The notes under the pieces: model-generated | Database searches by the model: none | Seen by the model: only the letters and a program-made list of their open reading frames with translations | Told to the model about the DNA's origin: nothing | Shown here: in pieces, positions 2,827 to 20,961 of the stretch | How positions within the stretch are numbered: the stretch's first letter is position 1 | Layout: the number at the start of each line of letters is the position of its first letter | Position numbers and translations under genes: made by a program | Source: a virus | DNA: 42,571 nucleotides | Virus record (IMG/VR): IMGVR_UViG_3300030085_002899 | Span: 23,969 to 66,539 of that record | Direction: 5' to 3' (one strand)

Positions 2827-2950
2827 TAAAAAGAAAAACGAAGAAATTGCAGAATCGCAATGGGAGTCATGGATTGTTGATTTAGAAGAGCAAGAACAAC
2901 CAGAGGCGTGTAGTATTGATGATGATAACTGTGAAAACTGTGGTTCATAA
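2801..2950 (+). CDS. Small acidic Cys-ended protein (49 aa)
   Basis: Starts inside the end of the preceding gene in another frame (ATG at 2801; an alternative ATG at 2819 gives 43 aa). The stop TAA overlaps the ATG of the T9SS-cargo gene by one base. The product is charged and ends in a Cys/Asp cluster, CSIDDDNCENCGS. The tight TAATG junction and the lack of any other reading of 2827-2949 support a real gene. The C-terminal CxxxxxxCxxC could bind metal or form disulfides. Function unknown. Confidence 0.6.
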   Translation: MENSKSMNDKKKNEEIAESQWESWIVDLEEQEQPEACSIDDDNCENCGS

Positions 2951-5115
2951 TGAAAAATTTAATTTATATAATTCTATTTATTAGTTCTTACGCTTACTCT
3001 CAAGACACTATATTTGATTGTAATGGAATACTTGCACCTGAAGCCTGGCTAGGTGATGGATATTGTGATGACGGTTCTTACGTTTGGAATGATAATCCTA
3101 TACACTTTGATTGTGAAGAGTTTGCTTACGATGGGGGTGATTGCGAAGTACCTTTACCTGAAGGTATATACGGCTGTACTGACCCTGAAGCACCTAACTT
3201 TAACCCTTGGGCTGACTACGATGACGATAGTTGTGTAGGGGTAAGCTGCTCTGATGGTGAGTCTAAAATGATTCTACAGTTAACTTTAGACCAATTTCCT
3301 GGTGAAACTGGATGGATACTTACAGATATAACAACAGGACAGCCAGTTGCTAATGTAGTAGCAGGAGAATATTCTTATGAACAATCTTACCAAACTATTA
3401 TATACGATTTATGTGTACCTGAAACAGGTGTAGAACTTATATTAAGTGATATATATGGTGATGGTTTAGGAGGTTCTATGTATGGTGGAGGCTCAGATGG
3501 AAACTTTATTATACTAGGTGATGCACAACCTTGTGGTAGCCTAGATACTTTGTGGGCTTTACCAGAGGCTAACTTTGGTGGCGCTGCTTACTCAGGCCCT
3601 ATATGGCTACAACAATGCGATATACCTATAATAGAAGGCTGTACAAATAACACATATGTAGAGTTTAATTTTGAAGCTAACTTTGACGATGGTTCTTGTG
3701 AAACATTACATACACTAGGATGCGTAAACCCTAGTTCTTTTAACTATAATCCACAAGCTACATTAAATGAAATTATACCTATCTGCAATTACACTCTTAT
3801 TATAGAAGATGACGGTGGTGACGGATGGGGAGATTCTTATATAGGAATTGTTCAAGAAGACAGCATTCTTGGTACGTATACTATTGGTCCTGGATTATAC
3901 TCTCAAGAATTTGATATAGTATTAGAAACTGATAAAGCCGTTAAAGTATACTATTTTGAAGTAGCTAGTCCACAAACTCCCCTTGCAGAAGTTGCTTTTC
4001 AGACTATGCATAACTCATTTACACTTATAAATTCTAACGATATTATTACACTTCAAGGAGGTGCTTACCCATTTGCTGAAAATGGTGCTGGTGCTTTACA
4101 GCCTTATGCTCCTCCATTTTGGAATGTATATAGCGCTATGCCTTTTTGTGGTGATTACTGTATACCTACAATATACGGATGTATGGATGAACAGTCTCTT
4201 AATTTTAATGAATTAGCTAATACGGACGATGGTAGCTGCATAGATATTATACAAGGATGTACATCACCTTTTGCTTTTAACTACGACTCTATCGCCAATG
4301 TAGATGATGGAAGTTGTGTTGCTATAGTTTATGGTTGTATGAGTGAAAGCGCATGGAATTATAACCCATTTGCTAACACAGCAGATGAATCTTGTATATA
4401 CTTTGGTTGTATGGATACATTAGCTGATAACTACGACCCTATTGCCAACGTAGAGCTTGAAGGAGCTTGTTTTACGACAGTTCTTGGTTGTACCGACCCT
4501 GAAGCTTTTAATTATAATGAAGAAGCTAATACAGAAGATTTTAGTTGTATACCAGTTATATTTGGATGCATGGATTCTACAGCATTCAATTACGACCCTA
4601 TGGCTAATACAGAAGGTGAGTGTCTAGAAATTATAGAAGGATGTATGGATGTAACAGCGTATAATTACGATGTTTTTGCTAATACAAATGCTGAATGTTT
4701 ATATGACGCAGGATGTATTGGAGAACCAGGAGAACCTTATTGGTTAAATGATACATGTTACGCTTGGGTGATAATGGTAGACCCTTATTGTTGTAATACT
4801 GATTGGGATGAGAAATGTCAAGCATTGTATTGGAGTTGTAGTTGGGATAGTCCATTAGATACTAGAGATTTACTTAGAGGAAATGATGTTGTTATATACC
4901 CAAACCCTATGGATGATTTATTAAATGTACTAACAAATGGTCCTGTAGGTATAAAAGTATATGATGTAACAGGAAAACTTGTAATTAAAGTAAAAGAATC
5001 ACAAACTAAAGAAGGATTAAATCAGCTTGATGTAGGTTTATTACCATCAGGTATATACAACTTTAGCATTACATACGAAGGAGTAACTAGCAACCAAAAA
5101 CTATTTAAAAGATGA
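2950..5115 (+). CDS. Secreted T9SS cargo-like protein with Cys-rich repeats
   Basis: 721 aa. Residues 1-18 are a Sec signal peptide (hydrophobic core, cleavage near YAYSQ|D). Residues 24-65 resemble a Notch/LNR module (GDGYCDDGS ... YDGGDC). Ten ~21-residue repeats of the form GCxDxxAxNYNxxANxxDGSC lie at about 75, 230, 257, 410, 436, 462, 486, 513, 539 and 564; these are typical of secreted flavobacterial proteins. A CC...WDEKC segment follows at 614-630. Residues ~646-721 match a type A T9SS C-terminal sorting domain: VVIYPNP, then YDVTGKLV, LPSGIYNF, and a basic end (KLFKR). The expected route is Sec export, then T9SS transfer across the outer membrane of the infected host. Alternatively the gene was captured and now serves as a virion fibre. 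Its stop overlaps the next ATG (ATGA), so it is translationally coupled to the barrel-like gene. Confidence 0.85.
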   Translation: MKNLIYIILFISSYAYSQDTIFDCNGILAPEAWLGDGYCDDGSYVWNDNPIHFDCEEFAYDGGDCEVPLPEGIYGCTDPEAPNFNPWADYDDDSCVGVSCSDGESKMILQLTLDQFPGETGWILTDITTGQPVANVVAGEYSYEQSYQTIIYDLCVPETGVELILSDIYGDGLGGSMYGGGSDGNFIILGDAQPCGSLDTLWALPEANFGGAAYSGPIWLQQCDIPIIEGCTNNTYVEFNFEANFDDGSCETLHTLGCVNPSSFNYNPQATLNEIIPICNYTLIIEDDGGDGWGDSYIGIVQEDSILGTYTIGPGLYSQEFDIVLETDKAVKVYYFEVASPQTPLAEVAFQTMHNSFTLINSNDIITLQGGAYPFAENGAGALQPYAPPFWNVYSAMPFCGDYCIPTIYGCMDEQSLNFNELANTDDGSCIDIIQGCTSPFAFNYDSIANVDDGSCVAIVYGCMSESAWNYNPFANTADESCIYFGCMDTLADNYDPIANVELEGACFTTVLGCTDPEAFNYNEEANTEDFSCIPVIFGCMDSTAFNYDPMANTEGECLEIIEGCMDVTAYNYDVFANTNAECLYDAGCIGEPGEPYWLNDTCYAWVIMVDPYCCNTDWDEKCQALYWSCSWDSPLDTRDLLRGNDVVIYPNPMDDLLNVLTNGPVGIKVYDVTGKLVIKVKESQTKEGLNQLDVGLLPSGIYNFSITYEGVTSNQKLFKR

Positions 5116-6206
5116 AAAAATTTCTAGAAAATATAACACCTAGTACTACATATATATCGTACTGGTTAATGCTAATTTTATTTTTTATTGTATTTTTCGG
5201 AGGAATTTCTACATGTAATGCACAAGGATTGCATAAGATATTTAAGTACTCTACGTTTTACGCTGCAGTAAATGGTGGTACGTCTTTATCTGACGACCAA
5301 ATATGGTCAGTTACTTCAGGCACATTAGAAGAAGATGTAATTGTTACACCATTTGATTACGCATTGTCTATAGGTATTAGAAAGATTAAGCGTTTTGGTT
5401 ATGAAAATAGAGCTAATACTTTTTATAATGGTACAGAAAATTCTTACAGTGATGCTGCTACAATAGGTAGAGTTGATGGTTTTGAATATTTATTCGAAGC
5501 TGACTTTGTACGTCGACTCGGTATAAACTATACTAACCAGCATCACTTTGTAAGATATGTAGCAGACAACTGGGTTGGTAAGGTAGAGTATTTAGAGGAT
5601 GGCTTTGCTGATATTAAATATTTTGAAGCATCACAAAGATATAGACTAAAAGTAAGGGAAGGCAAGCTGTCATTTAACGGGGGTTTTGTGCAGAGACTTG
5701 CCGAGCCTTACGGATTTGACCCTCTTGCAGACTGGGTTTTAGATAATGGTACTTTACATTACACATACCTAGCACTGCAAGAAGGATACAACATCAGCCT
5801 GGGGGGAGAGTATTTTTCACCTGACGGAGAGCTTGTAGCTAACAGTCAAGAAGTGTGGGAAGAGGTTGTAATACCTGAAGTTATAAATAATTATGTAGAA
5901 AAACAAAGAAACGCTTTAAAAGATATAGTAGAGTATTCTTTTGTAGCAGGTTTAGACTATTATCATTTTACAAAAAACTTTTGGTTTCACACTTGGGGTA
6001 ATATAATGCCATACCATTTAGATACAGGTAATAATTACTCTTATTATAACTTTAAAGGTAAACAATGGATTGACTATTCTTGTGGTTTAATATTTGGATA
6101 TAGGTTTAATAAAAGTTTAGGTATATTTGTAGAAGGTCGATATAATAAATACTGGAATAGACAATGGCATAACTTCAGTGTAGGTGTCAATTATGTAATA
6201 TTTTAA
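5112..6206 (+). CDS. Putative outer-membrane beta-barrel protein
   Basis: 364 aa. A hydrophobic segment at ~17-33 (YWLMLILFFIVFFGG) followed by ISTCNAQ|G looks like a signal peptide with the usual Bacteroidota AQ junction. The Cys just before it might instead allow lipidation. The rest is rich in alternating aromatic/polar strands (YSFVAGLDYYHF, SCGLIFGYRFN, LGIFVEGRYN) and ends in FSVGVNYVIF. A terminal strand ending in Phe is the usual beta-barrel assembly signal of outer-membrane proteins. It overlaps the T9SS-cargo gene by 4 bases. A role in the host envelope, such as receptor masking or helping surface display of the upstream protein, is inference. No specific family recognised. Confidence 0.6.
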   Translation: MKKFLENITPSTTYISYWLMLILFFIVFFGGISTCNAQGLHKIFKYSTFYAAVNGGTSLSDDQIWSVTSGTLEEDVIVTPFDYALSIGIRKIKRFGYENRANTFYNGTENSYSDAATIGRVDGFEYLFEADFVRRLGINYTNQHHFVRYVADNWVGKVEYLEDGFADIKYFEASQRYRLKVREGKLSFNGGFVQRLAEPYGFDPLADWVLDNGTLHYTYLALQEGYNISLGGEYFSPDGELVANSQEVWEEVVIPEVINNYVEKQRNALKDIVEYSFVAGLDYYHFTKNFWFHTWGNIMPYHLDTGNNYSYYNFKGKQWIDYSCGLIFGYRFNKSLGIFVEGRYNKYWNRQWHNFSVGVNYVIF

Positions 6207-6208
6207 TT

Positions 6209-6493
6209 ATGGCAAAAGAATTAAGTGAAGAAACATCTTTTAATATAAGTTTAAAAACTTTAGCTGGTATAGCAGTTCTTATATTTACATTAGTGGGTAT
6301 GTGGTTTACACTACAAAATGATATAGCAGAGGCTAAAGAATTACCATTACCTCTTGACCCTGAGATTACTCGTATGGAGTATGACATGAAAGACCAACTT
6401 ATTAGGCAAACGATTATGTCTACTCAGGATGATGTAAAAGAAATTAAAGACCACATGTTAAGACTTGAAAGTAAAATTGACCAATTGAATTAA
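6209..6493 (+). CDS. Membrane-anchored coiled-coil protein (holin/spanin-like candidate)
   Basis: 94 aa. A single transmembrane helix at ~15-33 (LAGIAVLIFTLVGMWFT) is followed by a heptad-like helix to the C-terminus (DDVKEIKDHMLRLESKIDQL). The short charged N-terminus suggests an N-in, C-out topology with a periplasmic coiled coil, as in inner-membrane spanins or class III holins. It sits between exported proteins and the lysis genes. It starts three bases after the barrel gene and ends with a one-base TAATG overlap. The lysis role is inferred; a structural or envelope role is also possible. Confidence 0.6.
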   Translation: MAKELSEETSFNISLKTLAGIAVLIFTLVGMWFTLQNDIAEAKELPLPLDPEITRMEYDMKDQLIRQTIMSTQDDVKEIKDHMLRLESKIDQLN

Positions 6494-6795
6494 TGATTAA
6501 GCTGTTTTGGATTTTATTATTTATAACAGCAATAGCAAAAGCACAAGTAATACAAAATGACAAACTTCTACATATGGGTGGAAGTTACGTTATAAGTTCT
6601 ACAGTTGCATCTTTAGTATATAACAAAACTAAAAACAAAAAATGTTCTTTACTTTCTGGGTTAACAGTTTCAATGATTATTGGCGCAGGTAAAGAAATAT
6701 ACGATAGAAAACATGGTAGTCCTGATTGGAATGACATGTTAGCAAATACAGTAGGGAGTACTTTAGGTGTAGTAACTATAAAAATAGCAATATGA
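6493..6795 (+). CDS. YfiM/DUF2279-like exported small protein
   Basis: 100 aa. Signal peptide 1-18 (LFWILLFITAIAKAQ|V). The mature part has DKLLHMGGSYVISS, then a hydrophobic segment (LLSGLTVSMIIGAG) running into KEIYDRKHGSPDWNDML, then NTVGSTLGV. This pattern (DK..H...Y..S, GKEiYD, DxxANxxG) matches the YfiM/DUF2279 or VanZ-like group of small envelope proteins common in Bacteroidota and their phages. It is coupled to the next gene by an ATGA overlap. Biochemical role unknown; membrane or periplasmic location is likely. Confidence 0.65.
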   Translation: MIKLFWILLFITAIAKAQVIQNDKLLHMGGSYVISSTVASLVYNKTKNKKCSLLSGLTVSMIIGAGKEIYDRKHGSPDWNDMLANTVGSTLGVVTIKIAI

Positions 6796-7127
6796 AAAAT
6801 TTAATATTTTTATTATTAATACCTTGCATAAGTTTTGCCCAGGACTTTTCTGATGGTTTAGTTGTTGTTCATTTTAATGCTAGTTTTAATAGTGCAAACG
6901 AAGTTTCTTGGATAACAAACTTAACAGACTGTGAAGTAGAAAAAGTAGATATTGCAGCAGACCCTAGATGGTCTTCTGAATATAAAATAGTTGTAGTTCC
7001 TACTATAGTAGTCTTTAATAATAACGAAGAAGTAAAAAGGTTTCAGGCAAATATTATGATGACTATGGAAGCTACAAAAAAAGAAGTGCAAACTTCTATA
7101 GACGAAATAATTATGGAAGCATTTTAA
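6792..7127 (+). CDS. Exported thioredoxin-fold protein lacking CxxC
   Basis: 111 aa. Signal peptide ~1-16 (LIFLLLIPCISFAQ|D). The mature sequence follows a thioredoxin pattern: LVVVHFNASFNSANEV aligns with the beta strand and active-site loop, then VEKVDIAADPRWSSEYKI, then VVVPTIVVFNNNEEVKRF with the conserved cis-Pro (VPT). The usual CxxC is absent: the loop reads ASFNSANE, and the only mature Cys lies in a later helix (TDCEVEK). It therefore should not be a dithiol oxidoreductase and may act as a binding module. It is the fourth gene with a signal peptide in this block. Confidence 0.7.
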   Translation: MKNLIFLLLIPCISFAQDFSDGLVVVHFNASFNSANEVSWITNLTDCEVEKVDIAADPRWSSEYKIVVVPTIVVFNNNEEVKRFQANIMMTMEATKKEVQTSIDEIIMEAF

Positions 7128-7135
7128 ATTAAATT

Positions 7136-7585
7136 ATGAAACTAAGTAAGAACTTTGTATTATCAGAAATTACTCAAAGTAATACAGCAACAAGATTAGG
7201 TATAAGTAATGAACCAACTAAAGAACACTTGGAAAATATGCAAAGGCTTATTTCTAATCTTATACAGCCTATGCGTGACCGTATTGGTCCTATCCGTATC
7301 AGTAGTGGTTATCGCTCTAAAGAACTTAATCGTGCTATCGGTGGAAGTAATAAGTCACAACATTGCAAAGGCGAAGCTCTTGATTTGCAGTATTGGGAAA
7401 ACGGCAAAATGAATAACAAAGTAATCTACGATTGGATATTAAATTCAGGTTTAGAGTTTGACCAAATGATTAATGAGTTTGACTTTGCTTGGATACATAT
7501 ATCTTTAAAAGCTAAAGGCAACAGAAAGCAAGTATTAGAAGCTTACAAAGATGAGGATGGCGACACTAAATATAGATACGCATAA
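7136..7585 (+). CDS. Peptidase M15A-type endolysin
   Basis: 149 aa. The Peptidase_M15_3 pattern is clear: an N-terminal FVLSEIT element, SGYRS at ~57-61, the zinc ligands His76 and Asp83 in SQHCKGEALDL, and the third ligand His121 in WIHIS. Family members are zinc D,D- or L,D-carboxypeptidases/endopeptidases that cut peptidoglycan cross-links, and phages use them as endolysins. Residues 46-62 (MRDRIGPIRISSGYRS) form the typical core. There is no signal peptide, so release would depend on the holin downstream at 8347. Function is well supported. Confidence 0.9.
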   Translation: MKLSKNFVLSEITQSNTATRLGISNEPTKEHLENMQRLISNLIQPMRDRIGPIRISSGYRSKELNRAIGGSNKSQHCKGEALDLQYWENGKMNNKVIYDWILNSGLEFDQMINEFDFAWIHISLKAKGNRKQVLEAYKDEDGDTKYRYA

Positions 7586-8346: not shown

Positions 8347-8736
8347 ATGTTAAAAAATATACTAAGTAATTTAGTAGGTCAGGCATCTACTATTATAGAT
8401 GAAGTAGTTACAACAGATGAAGAGAGATTAGCTCTAAAGAATAAACTTGAAAAACTACATAAAGAACACGAACAAGAAATATTTAAACTAGAGGTAGAAG
8501 ACAGAAAAAGTGCTCGTACTATGTTTATGGGCGACAATGTTATACAAAAAACTTTAGCAATAATTTTTACTGCAGCGTATTTTTTTCTATCTTACACCAT
8601 GTTTAAGTACTTTGTTATGAATAGCTTAGAATTATCTGATTATGAAATAGGTTTTATTTCTACAGTATTTGGTGCAATGTCAAGTAAGGTAAACACTATT
8701 ATAGACTTCTTTTTTGGAGGTTCTTCAAAGAATTAA
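8347..8736 (+). CDS. Holin, GTA_holin_3TM-like
   Basis: 129 aa. The N-terminal ~60 residues form a charged amphipathic helix (DEERLALKNKLEKLHKEHEQE) ending in a conserved-looking RKSAR motif. Two hydrophobic segments follow at ~68-88 (TLAIIFTAAYFFLSYTMF) and ~100-120 (YEIGFISTVFGAMSSKVN). This arrangement, with RxxAR before the membrane helices and a GxxxSxxxxxxxFFFG end, is typical of the GTA_holin_3TM family. It would permeabilise the inner membrane to release the M15 endolysin encoded upstream at 7136. Confidence 0.8.
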   Translation: MLKNILSNLVGQASTIIDEVVTTDEERLALKNKLEKLHKEHEQEIFKLEVEDRKSARTMFMGDNVIQKTLAIIFTAAYFFLSYTMFKYFVMNSLELSDYEIGFISTVFGAMSSKVNTIIDFFFGGSSKN

Positions 8737-20025: not shown

Positions 20026-20961
20026 TTACACGTAAATTTCTTGTTCGACTAAATCTAAAAACATTTGTATTTTTTCTATATCTTTTTCGTCAATAGAATT
20101 AAACTCTTTCATGTTTTTAAACATTTCATTAACTGATTCAAATCCTTGTGACATACAGTTATAATAATCTTCAGTATAAGGTTCAGGTAAACTATTTGTA
20201 TCTAGTACGTTAAAAGACCTATTCCATGTATTCTCTTCTGCTTCAGTCCACGAAGATTTGATTGAAGCCGTACCGTTTCCCATGTAATCTCCATACTCGT
20301 ACCAATTTTTGCTATTAACTTTCGTTATAGCTGTAACAGGTATTTTAACAGAGTCAACAAGCTCACCAGTAGGAGAGTATATAAATAACTTATCCTTAGT
20401 TACTTCTTTAACTTTATTTTCGTCAAATAAAATATCTAAACATTCACGTCTTGAACTAAAGTATATACCAGTTTCATCTCTGTATCTAAACAAAGGATTA
20501 TTTCTACGATATACATAAAGTTGACCATCGCTTTGAGTAAATACAGCGTTAATTGTACCACCAAAAGAACCTAAAGTAGCATAGTCATCAGTCTTTTTAA
20601 GTACGCTATATATTGCTTTTGAATCAACATCTACGTCATCTAACTCGTGGTCAAATAAAACATCTTCAAAATTGTCTAACACACCATTGTGTACACCAAC
20701 GTATTTACCGTAAGTATAAGGGTGTGTGTTCTCAGCGGTTTTAGCACCATGAGTTCCATACCTAGTATGACCTATAAACAATTGTGATTTTGTTTCATCC
20801 ATTAATGATAAAAGGTTAGGAGAGTCATCTAAGCATTTGTATATTTTTCCATCTGTATACAAACCAGCTGAGTGTCCGCCTCTATTATCATTGTCGTGCA
20901 TCATAAACATTAATTTGTTCATGTTAGCACCTTCTCCTATATATGCAACTATTCCACACAT
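20026..20961 (-). CDS. Class II glutamine amidotransferase (GAT-II, Ntn hydrolase)
   Basis: 311 aa. Met1 removal exposes Cys2 in MCGIVAYIG, the nucleophile of GlmS/PurF-type amidotransferases. Supporting motifs: RGGHSAG (27-33), IGHTRYGTHG (63-72), HNGVLDN (91-97) and DSKAIY (113-118). It should hydrolyse glutamine and release ammonia or act as an amide hydrolase. There is no SIS or phosphoribosyltransferase domain; the C-terminal ~110 residues are unique. Lies two genes upstream of the amidoligase, which could use the ammonia or release a product of the GAT. Confidence 0.9.
   Translation of the reverse strand: MCGIVAYIGEGANMNKLMFMMHDNDNRGGHSAGLYTDGKIYKCLDDSPNLLSLMDETKSQLFIGHTRYGTHGAKTAENTHPYTYGKYVGVHNGVLDNFEDVLFDHELDDVDVDSKAIYSVLKKTDDYATLGSFGGTINAVFTQSDGQLYVYRRNNPLFRYRDETGIYFSSRRECLDILFDENKVKEVTKDKLFIYSPTGELVDSVKIPVTAITKVNSKNWYEYGDYMGNGTASIKSSWTEAEENTWNRSFNVLDTNSLPEPYTEDYYNCMSQGFESVNEMFKNMKEFNSIDEKDIEKIQMFLDLVEQEIYV

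Follow-up and report, generated by a model that had tools for sequence, protein, structure and literature searches.

The window, by which we mean the whole stretch of 42,571 nucleotides analysed here, corresponds to bases 23969-66539 of a 66,539-base IMG/VR record (IMGVR_UViG_3300030085_002899). At positions 2950-5115 it contains an uninterrupted reading frame on the plus strand, with an ATG start and a product of 721 aa, which lies in the late tail/lysis region, with tail-fibre/collagen genes on one side and an M15 endolysin gene on the other. The original prediction viewed this gene singly, as encoding a secreted protein with a type IX secretion system (T9SS) sorting domain; in the present analysis the protein, hereafter the cargo, belongs to an envelope cassette of four genes that is associated with lysis genes, together with a predicted outer-membrane β-barrel, a single-transmembrane (TM) protein and a thioredoxin-like protein (TRX). 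The features of the region are as follows.

2950..5115, + strand: T9SS cargo protein, 721 aa, with a predicted signal peptide, a putative LNR-like module, ten Cys-bounded repeats, a "PYWLNDTCYAWVIMVDPYCC..WD..C" module and a T9SS type A C-terminal domain (CTD)
4894..5112, + strand: T9SS type A sorting domain (cargo residues 649-721), from PF18962, TIGR04183 and fold match to 8glk, 8gl6 and 8qb1
5112..6206, + strand: predicted outer-membrane β-barrel, 364 aa, with a signal sequence, about 12 strands and a conserved C-terminal NYVIF (AF2, Foldseek, alignment A1)
6209..6493, + strand: single-TM protein, 94 aa, with a coiled-coil-like C-terminus and the motif EITRMEYDMKDQLIRQTIM[ST]TQ (alignment A3)
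6493..6795, + strand: optional DUF2279/VanZ-like protein with a signal sequence (PF10043, 32.5 bits versus 28.6)
6792..7127, + strand: secreted thioredoxin-like protein, TRX (profile A4, alignment A4, Cys positions)
7136..7585, + strand: M15 endolysin, associated with the cassette and not core (PF08291, 64.4 bits; phrog_894, 120.6 bits)
8347..8736, + strand: holin-like membrane protein, associated and not core (phrog_3427 'holin', 27.8 bits)

Farther along the window, an ORF at 20026-20961 on the minus strand, starting MCGIVAYIGEG, appears by eye to contain a class II glutamine amidotransferase-like domain.

The cargo protein and its sorting domain

Residues 649-720 of the cargo match PF18962 with 45.4 bits (curated cut-off 27), and the CTD matches TIGR04183 with 37.1 bits (curated cut-off 23), so that both profiles bear out the sorting domain that had been proposed from short motifs. 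The AF2 model of the CTD is a confident β-sandwich (pLDDT about 75-89) that matches the CTDs of NucA (8glk_D; TM by target 0.77, 29% identity) and RemA (8gl6_D; TM by target 0.77), both of which were solved in T9SS substrate-bound complexes, as well as the CTD of mirolase (8qb1; TM by target 0.67). The Ig-like seven-strand fold of T9SS type A effectors is thus found by profiles and by fold match, and motif E, a conserved Lys in the last residues, is present both in the window (...NQKLFKR) and in homologues (...KVLKR or KKIIKQ). On sequence and fold together, we classify the cargo as a T9SS type A effector. Another TIGR04183 match, at 2635-2796 in a small fibre-region protein (phrog_1084), scores 15.4-15.8 bits, below the cut-off, and is treated as a chance match.

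The N-terminus, MKNLIYIILFISSYAYS followed by QDT, is signal-peptide-like according to a heuristic that also predicts the cut, which would expose a Gln in keeping with the Bacteroidetes 'Q rule' (PMC10367356). Ten GC...C repeats, the number originally counted, begin at residues 75, 230, 257, 410, 436, 462, 486, 513, 539 and 564; nine are caught by a regular expression that finds a mean of 0.0 per shuffle over 1000 shuffles, and the tenth, GCTNNTYVEFNFEANFDDGSC, was recognised by eye. The LNR-like module suggested for residues 24-65 is plausible by eye and has no Pfam match at E <= 0.1. A protein encoded at about 36.8 kb in Synechococcus phage S-CAM3 (KU686198, NC_031906), annotated as hypothetical or virion structural, bears the same Cys-bounded repeat, which is therefore not specific to T9SS cargo; since cyanophage proteins have similar repeats, we rejected the repeats alone as evidence of function.

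Relatives of the cargo occur at 71 IMG/VR loci, with 46-86% identity, and the architecture is kept across the family, the complete members beginning with a signal-peptide-like segment and ending in a CTD-like one. A simple signal-peptide test is passed by 63 of the 67 distinct complete proteins versus 36 of 674 control ORFs, and 51 of the same 67, versus 102 of the controls, have Gln after a small-residue boundary. Length (about 620-1160 aa) and repeat number vary. PF18962 scores above its cut-off in all 41 cassette-bearing genomes or records searched, with exactly one match in nearly all of the viral ones. In three members (L126, L112 and L068), identity with the window cargo drops from 64-69% over residues 400-644 to 31-36% over the CTD, and the CTD of L068 nonetheless reaches 54.7 bits in the PF18962 search; the CTDs of L179, L189 and L195 are diverged and score below the cut-off. 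To judge by these sequences, the CTD of at least three crAss-type members has been replaced or has diverged strongly while remaining of T9SS type.

Fifteen cargo members end in a short C-terminal tail, 'ITDILGRP..KNKLLFFIYDDGTVEKKI', and the three of them that were scanned match no T9SS profile. The tail (LGRxxxxxNxLLFFIYDDGTVEKK), seen in L223, L234, L238, L240 and others, is shared with secreted host proteins that match neither PF18962 nor TIGR04183: a similar one occurs at eight places in a cassette-bearing Flavobacteriales MAG, and both complete host ORFs that were read (L320 and L324) encode a signal-peptide-bearing protein with this tail at its extreme C-terminus. Because the final 22 residues alone support secretion in one type A CTD (PMC10202324), the short tail could act as a sorting signal of the host, possibly a minimal T9SS signal that has so far escaped description. 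The conserved signal peptide and CTD, the CTDs that have diverged or been exchanged and yet are of T9SS type, and the host-like tails lend good support to the earlier proposal that the phage uses the T9SS of its host to reach the outside. Export of the cargo by the T9SS is, in our assessment, very probable, even with the absence of a recognised profile match in the short-tail proteins counted against it.

Linkage and conservation of the cassette

Searches of IMG/VR viral contigs yielded 163 relatives of the window barrel, 123 of a divergent barrel and at least 570 of the TM protein. Among the loci analysed, which are the best 80 of the larger sets of relatives and under-sample very distant cassettes, the barrel, TM and TRX genes occur together in 96 of 96 distinct loci with enough flank, and the cargo in 94 (it is missing in L290 and L310); with the TM protein as the anchor, barrel and TRX are found in 91 of 91 loci. 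The gene order may be cargo-barrel-TM-TRX, barrel-TM-TRX-cargo or TM-TRX-cargo-barrel, and the linkage therefore survives rearrangement. All four genes are under purifying selection (median dN/dS 0.10-0.15), and most loci, like the window (ATGA), show a 4-bp overlap between the cargo stop and the barrel start. Only some cassettes, a minority that includes a cluster of 17 loci, have the DUF2279/VanZ-like gene inserted between those for TM and TRX. Genes for a Cpn10-like co-chaperonin and for an SNase-like nuclease are found repeatedly in the vicinity of the cassette (L041 and L190; clusters of 46 and 22 loci), and one 96-kb contig, IMGVR_UViG_3300030116_004105, carries two non-identical cassettes, one at each end (L086/L276 and L113/L271), whose barrels are 80% and 83% identical to that of the window.

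The AF2 model of the barrel (pLDDT 67, pTM 0.61) finds its best Foldseek matches among the porins NanC, KdgM, FapF and OmpG, and the protein is predicted to sit in the outer membrane. Its alignment A1 has 62 rows and a mean column identity of 75%. In shape the 94-aa protein could pass for a type II inner-membrane spanin subunit with a periplasmic coiled coil, on a topology read by eye from alignment A3, and an endolysin gene is adjacent. TRX is matched to PDB thioredoxins by profile A4 (E 1e-6), but the CxxC active site is missing and a single Cys (C47) is conserved, so an active thioredoxin was rejected; signal-peptide-like N-termini were scored in 79 of 79 TRX proteins, versus 36 of 674 control ORFs. 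A reading of the region as a defence system was likewise set aside, with no PADLOC profile match for five proteins.

Phage lineages and hosts

The TerL, portal and capsid proteins match the crAss-like families phrog_6681, 6547 and 11589, the nearest public phages for TerL and capsid being gut Crassvirales, and TerL more distantly resembles its counterparts in Flavobacterium, Cellulophaga and Bacteroides phages. Because the phage is crAss-like by these three proteins, its host is very probably a member of the Bacteroidota, the phylum that possesses the T9SS, and probably a marine one. Relatives of the phage infect Flavobacteriia or Bacteroides, and cassettes are carried by contigs that have been assigned to Bacteroidota MAGs, one such MAG having 42 CTD matches.

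The cassette is spread over hundreds of IMG/VR contigs. Among 22 longer records, 16 have a crAss-like portal and four a T4-like gp23, never both, and the cassette must therefore have crossed between unrelated phage lineages. A tblastn search of INPHARED with the barrel and the TM protein gave no match in any record, and the cargo gave repeat matches only. In Bacteroidia genomes the barrel was matched in 1 of 395 and the TM protein in 1 of 149, in both cases the MAG already known to hold a phage contig; a scan of genome contigs yielded four MAG contigs, at least two of them with clear phage neighbours. The genomes of eight cultured relatives (Crassvirales and flavophages) contained no T9SS genes, and a barrel search of the cultured relatives' genomes, run without a positive control, found none. 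In G440, the record of L232, the portal match is split in two and includes one in-frame TAG, perhaps reflecting stop-codon recoding, which is known in crAss-like phages.

Lysis genes and the spanin question

The neighbourhood of the cassette was surveyed where 5 kb of sequence flanked it on each side, in 86 distinct loci, counting as endolysin-like any M15, Amidase_2 plus PG_binding, or DUF5675 gene within about 4 kb (DUF5675 was counted as lysis-like by our own choice). An endolysin-like gene is present in 68 of the 86 loci and an endolysin- or holin-like gene in 81, whereas in five (L144, L070, L240, L234 and L310) neither was recognised nearby. The M15 gene starts a median of 13 nt past the TRX ORF, and in T4-like members an unrelated endolysin (PG_binding_1 + Amidase_2) occupies its position. 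At least two unrelated types are represented among the holin-like genes recognised near the cassette. DUF5675 proteins repeatedly occupy the endolysin position adjacent or close to the cassette (L154, L145 and L063), and this family may have a role in lysis.

A lipobox scan of the 66.5-kb record, which recovered lambda Rz1 as a positive control, yielded no credible o- or u-spanin lipoprotein; the only real ORF flagged was the barrel, with a weak 'ISTC' that is not present in all homologues. On these tests we do not class the cassette as a two-component spanin, which would require an o-spanin lipoprotein. Kongari et al. considered an outer-membrane protein as a possible o-spanin in spanin-less phages, and their list of such phages includes those of Croceibacter and Bacteroides (PMC6139136).

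Proposed function and alternatives

We tentatively favour, as the best explanation of the whole, a T9SS effector that forms part of a trans-envelope late complex, most likely serving the outer-membrane step of lysis. The sequences directly show the domain signatures, the linkage, the exchange of genes between phages and the nearness to lysis genes; localisation, complex formation, timing and the part in lysis we infer as follows. The cargo, the barrel and TRX would be exported by Sec; the host T9SS would recognise the CTD and move the cargo across the outer membrane to the surface, where it would most likely act with the phage's own barrel. A link through the periplasm would connect this barrel with the 94-aa coiled-coil protein of the inner membrane, the inactive thioredoxin serving as a periplasmic chaperone or linker, and the complex would be made together with the lysis genes late in infection. 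Barrel and TM protein would then be a non-lipoprotein stand-in for a spanin pair, with the cargo weakening or uncoupling the surface layer. That the cassette proteins physically form a complex seems to us reasonably probable; that they have a role in lysis is a possibility we advance with some doubt. It is similarly conceivable, if somewhat doubtful, that crAss-like and T4-like phages of marine Bacteroidota possess a previously unrecognised trans-envelope apparatus whose outermost subunit is placed by the host T9SS, and which either dispenses with a spanin lipoprotein in opening the outer membrane or times lysis by sensing the exterior. Several points count against the lysis model: proximity to lysis genes may reflect only a shared late operon, five loci have no recognised endolysin- or holin-like gene nearby, a surface repeat protein is not obviously needed for lysis and is missing in two of the 96 loci (L290 and L310), the barrel, modelled with moderate confidence, best matches porins, and 94 aa is short for a protein that would span the periplasm alone.

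The purposes first suggested for the cargo were to mask receptors, aggregate cells or block superinfection; because the cargo belongs to a conserved envelope cassette tied to lysis genes, a role at the lysis stage is at least as likely. The main rival to the lysis model is nevertheless of this kind, namely surface remodelling, superinfection exclusion or debris masking, in which barrel-anchored cargo would coat the cell or its debris and so keep sister virions from adsorbing to cells already infected or to fragments. Of the steps in this scenario, surface targeting has the strongest support, the variation in length and repeat number resembles that of surface adhesins, and there is a precedent for a cargo-barrel pair in type B T9SS substrates, which cluster with their own outer-membrane anchor barrel, PorP/SprF (PMC10202324). 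It leaves unexplained, however, the invariant inner-membrane and periplasmic partners, the two loci in which barrel, TM protein and TRX occur without cargo, and the adjacency of endolysins in unrelated phages, and the barrel is highly conserved (75-90% among crAss-type members), unlike an arms-race surface protein; we regard this alternative as rather unlikely. The same clustering of type B cargo genes with PorP/SprF genes (PMC10202324), along with the 4-bp gene overlap, could be taken to mean that the barrel is a phage-supplied T9SS accessory, a PorV- or PorP/SprF-like shuttle or anchor aiding export of the cargo. An identification of the barrel as PorV or PorP/SprF proper was rejected, since neither family nor fold matches: none of the 62 barrel homologues has a PorP/SprF or PorV match in Pfam at E <= 0.1, the NCBIfam scan gave no match to either barrel, and the 50 best Foldseek PDB matches include no T9SS barrel. 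Moreover, L290 and L310 have the barrel and no cargo, and the cargo CTD is of type A, which uses the PorV of the host. An accessory role is accordingly improbable.

Two further readings appear less probable still. A lysis-timing sensor, in which surface protein and barrel would detect a superinfecting phage or the lysis of a neighbour and relay this through the periplasm and inner membrane to the holin, fits parts that map to the surface, outer membrane, periplasm and inner membrane beside holin- and endolysin-like genes, but the diversity of the holin-like genes counts against it and the signalling would be hypothetical; we hold it to be quite improbable. The least probable is that the repeat protein is a virion component, a tail or decoration protein with a structural CTD: its gene does come after tail-fibre genes, and the S-CAM3 protein with related repeats carries the annotation 'virion structural protein', yet the signal peptides are conserved, one T9SS CTD has been exchanged for another, and upon reordering the cargo travels with barrel, TM protein and TRX instead of the tail genes.

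Relation to known systems and implications

The original prediction also held that phage use of the T9SS is little described. This is so, although it is not unknown: phage T9SS cargo receives brief mention in two earlier papers (PMC7468147, PMC6949934), and what is new here is the conserved cassette context. 'Cryophage' (2020) likewise bears T9SS type A sorting domains, on endoglucanase, GH39 and PA14-domain proteins, but these are variable island genes of one phage, termed a unique occurrence (PMC7468147), whereas the present case involves one conserved cargo family with fixed partners, on hundreds of phage contigs and beside lysis genes. crAss-BACON cluster 2 (2019) resembles it in that crAss-like phages have T9SS sorting-domain proteins, but those contain BACON repeats, are mentioned in passing near head genes, and come with no description of a barrel/TM/TRX cassette (PMC6949934). 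The secreted proteins of Porphyromonas gingivalis phages that follow the Q rule share with the cargo the Bacteroidota-adapted signal peptides on phage genes, but no T9SS domain is mentioned there (PMC10367356). Adjacency of a secreted cargo gene to an outer-membrane barrel gene recalls T9SS type B with PorP/SprF, from which the phage system differs in its type A CTD, a barrel that is not detectably PorP/SprF and two further invariant envelope proteins. Like Rz/Rz1 spanins, it pairs a TM coiled-coil-like protein with a protein of the outer membrane and has endolysin and holin genes as neighbours, but the outer-membrane member is a predicted β-barrel instead of a lipoprotein and there are two extra proteins, one of them probably exported by the T9SS. 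A literature search, largely without subscription papers, found no description of the four-gene cassette.

Phage genes with T9SS tags are thereby moved from a curiosity to a testable conserved system that is shared by unrelated lineages. If the role in lysis is true, the cassette would address how the outer membrane is opened by phages that have no recognisable spanin lipoprotein, and would represent a phage process dependent on a secretion machine of the host; if exclusion is its role, it would be a widespread surface-modification system. Either way, hundreds of hypothetical proteins are grouped into one module, which provides a marker for phages of T9SS-bearing hosts.
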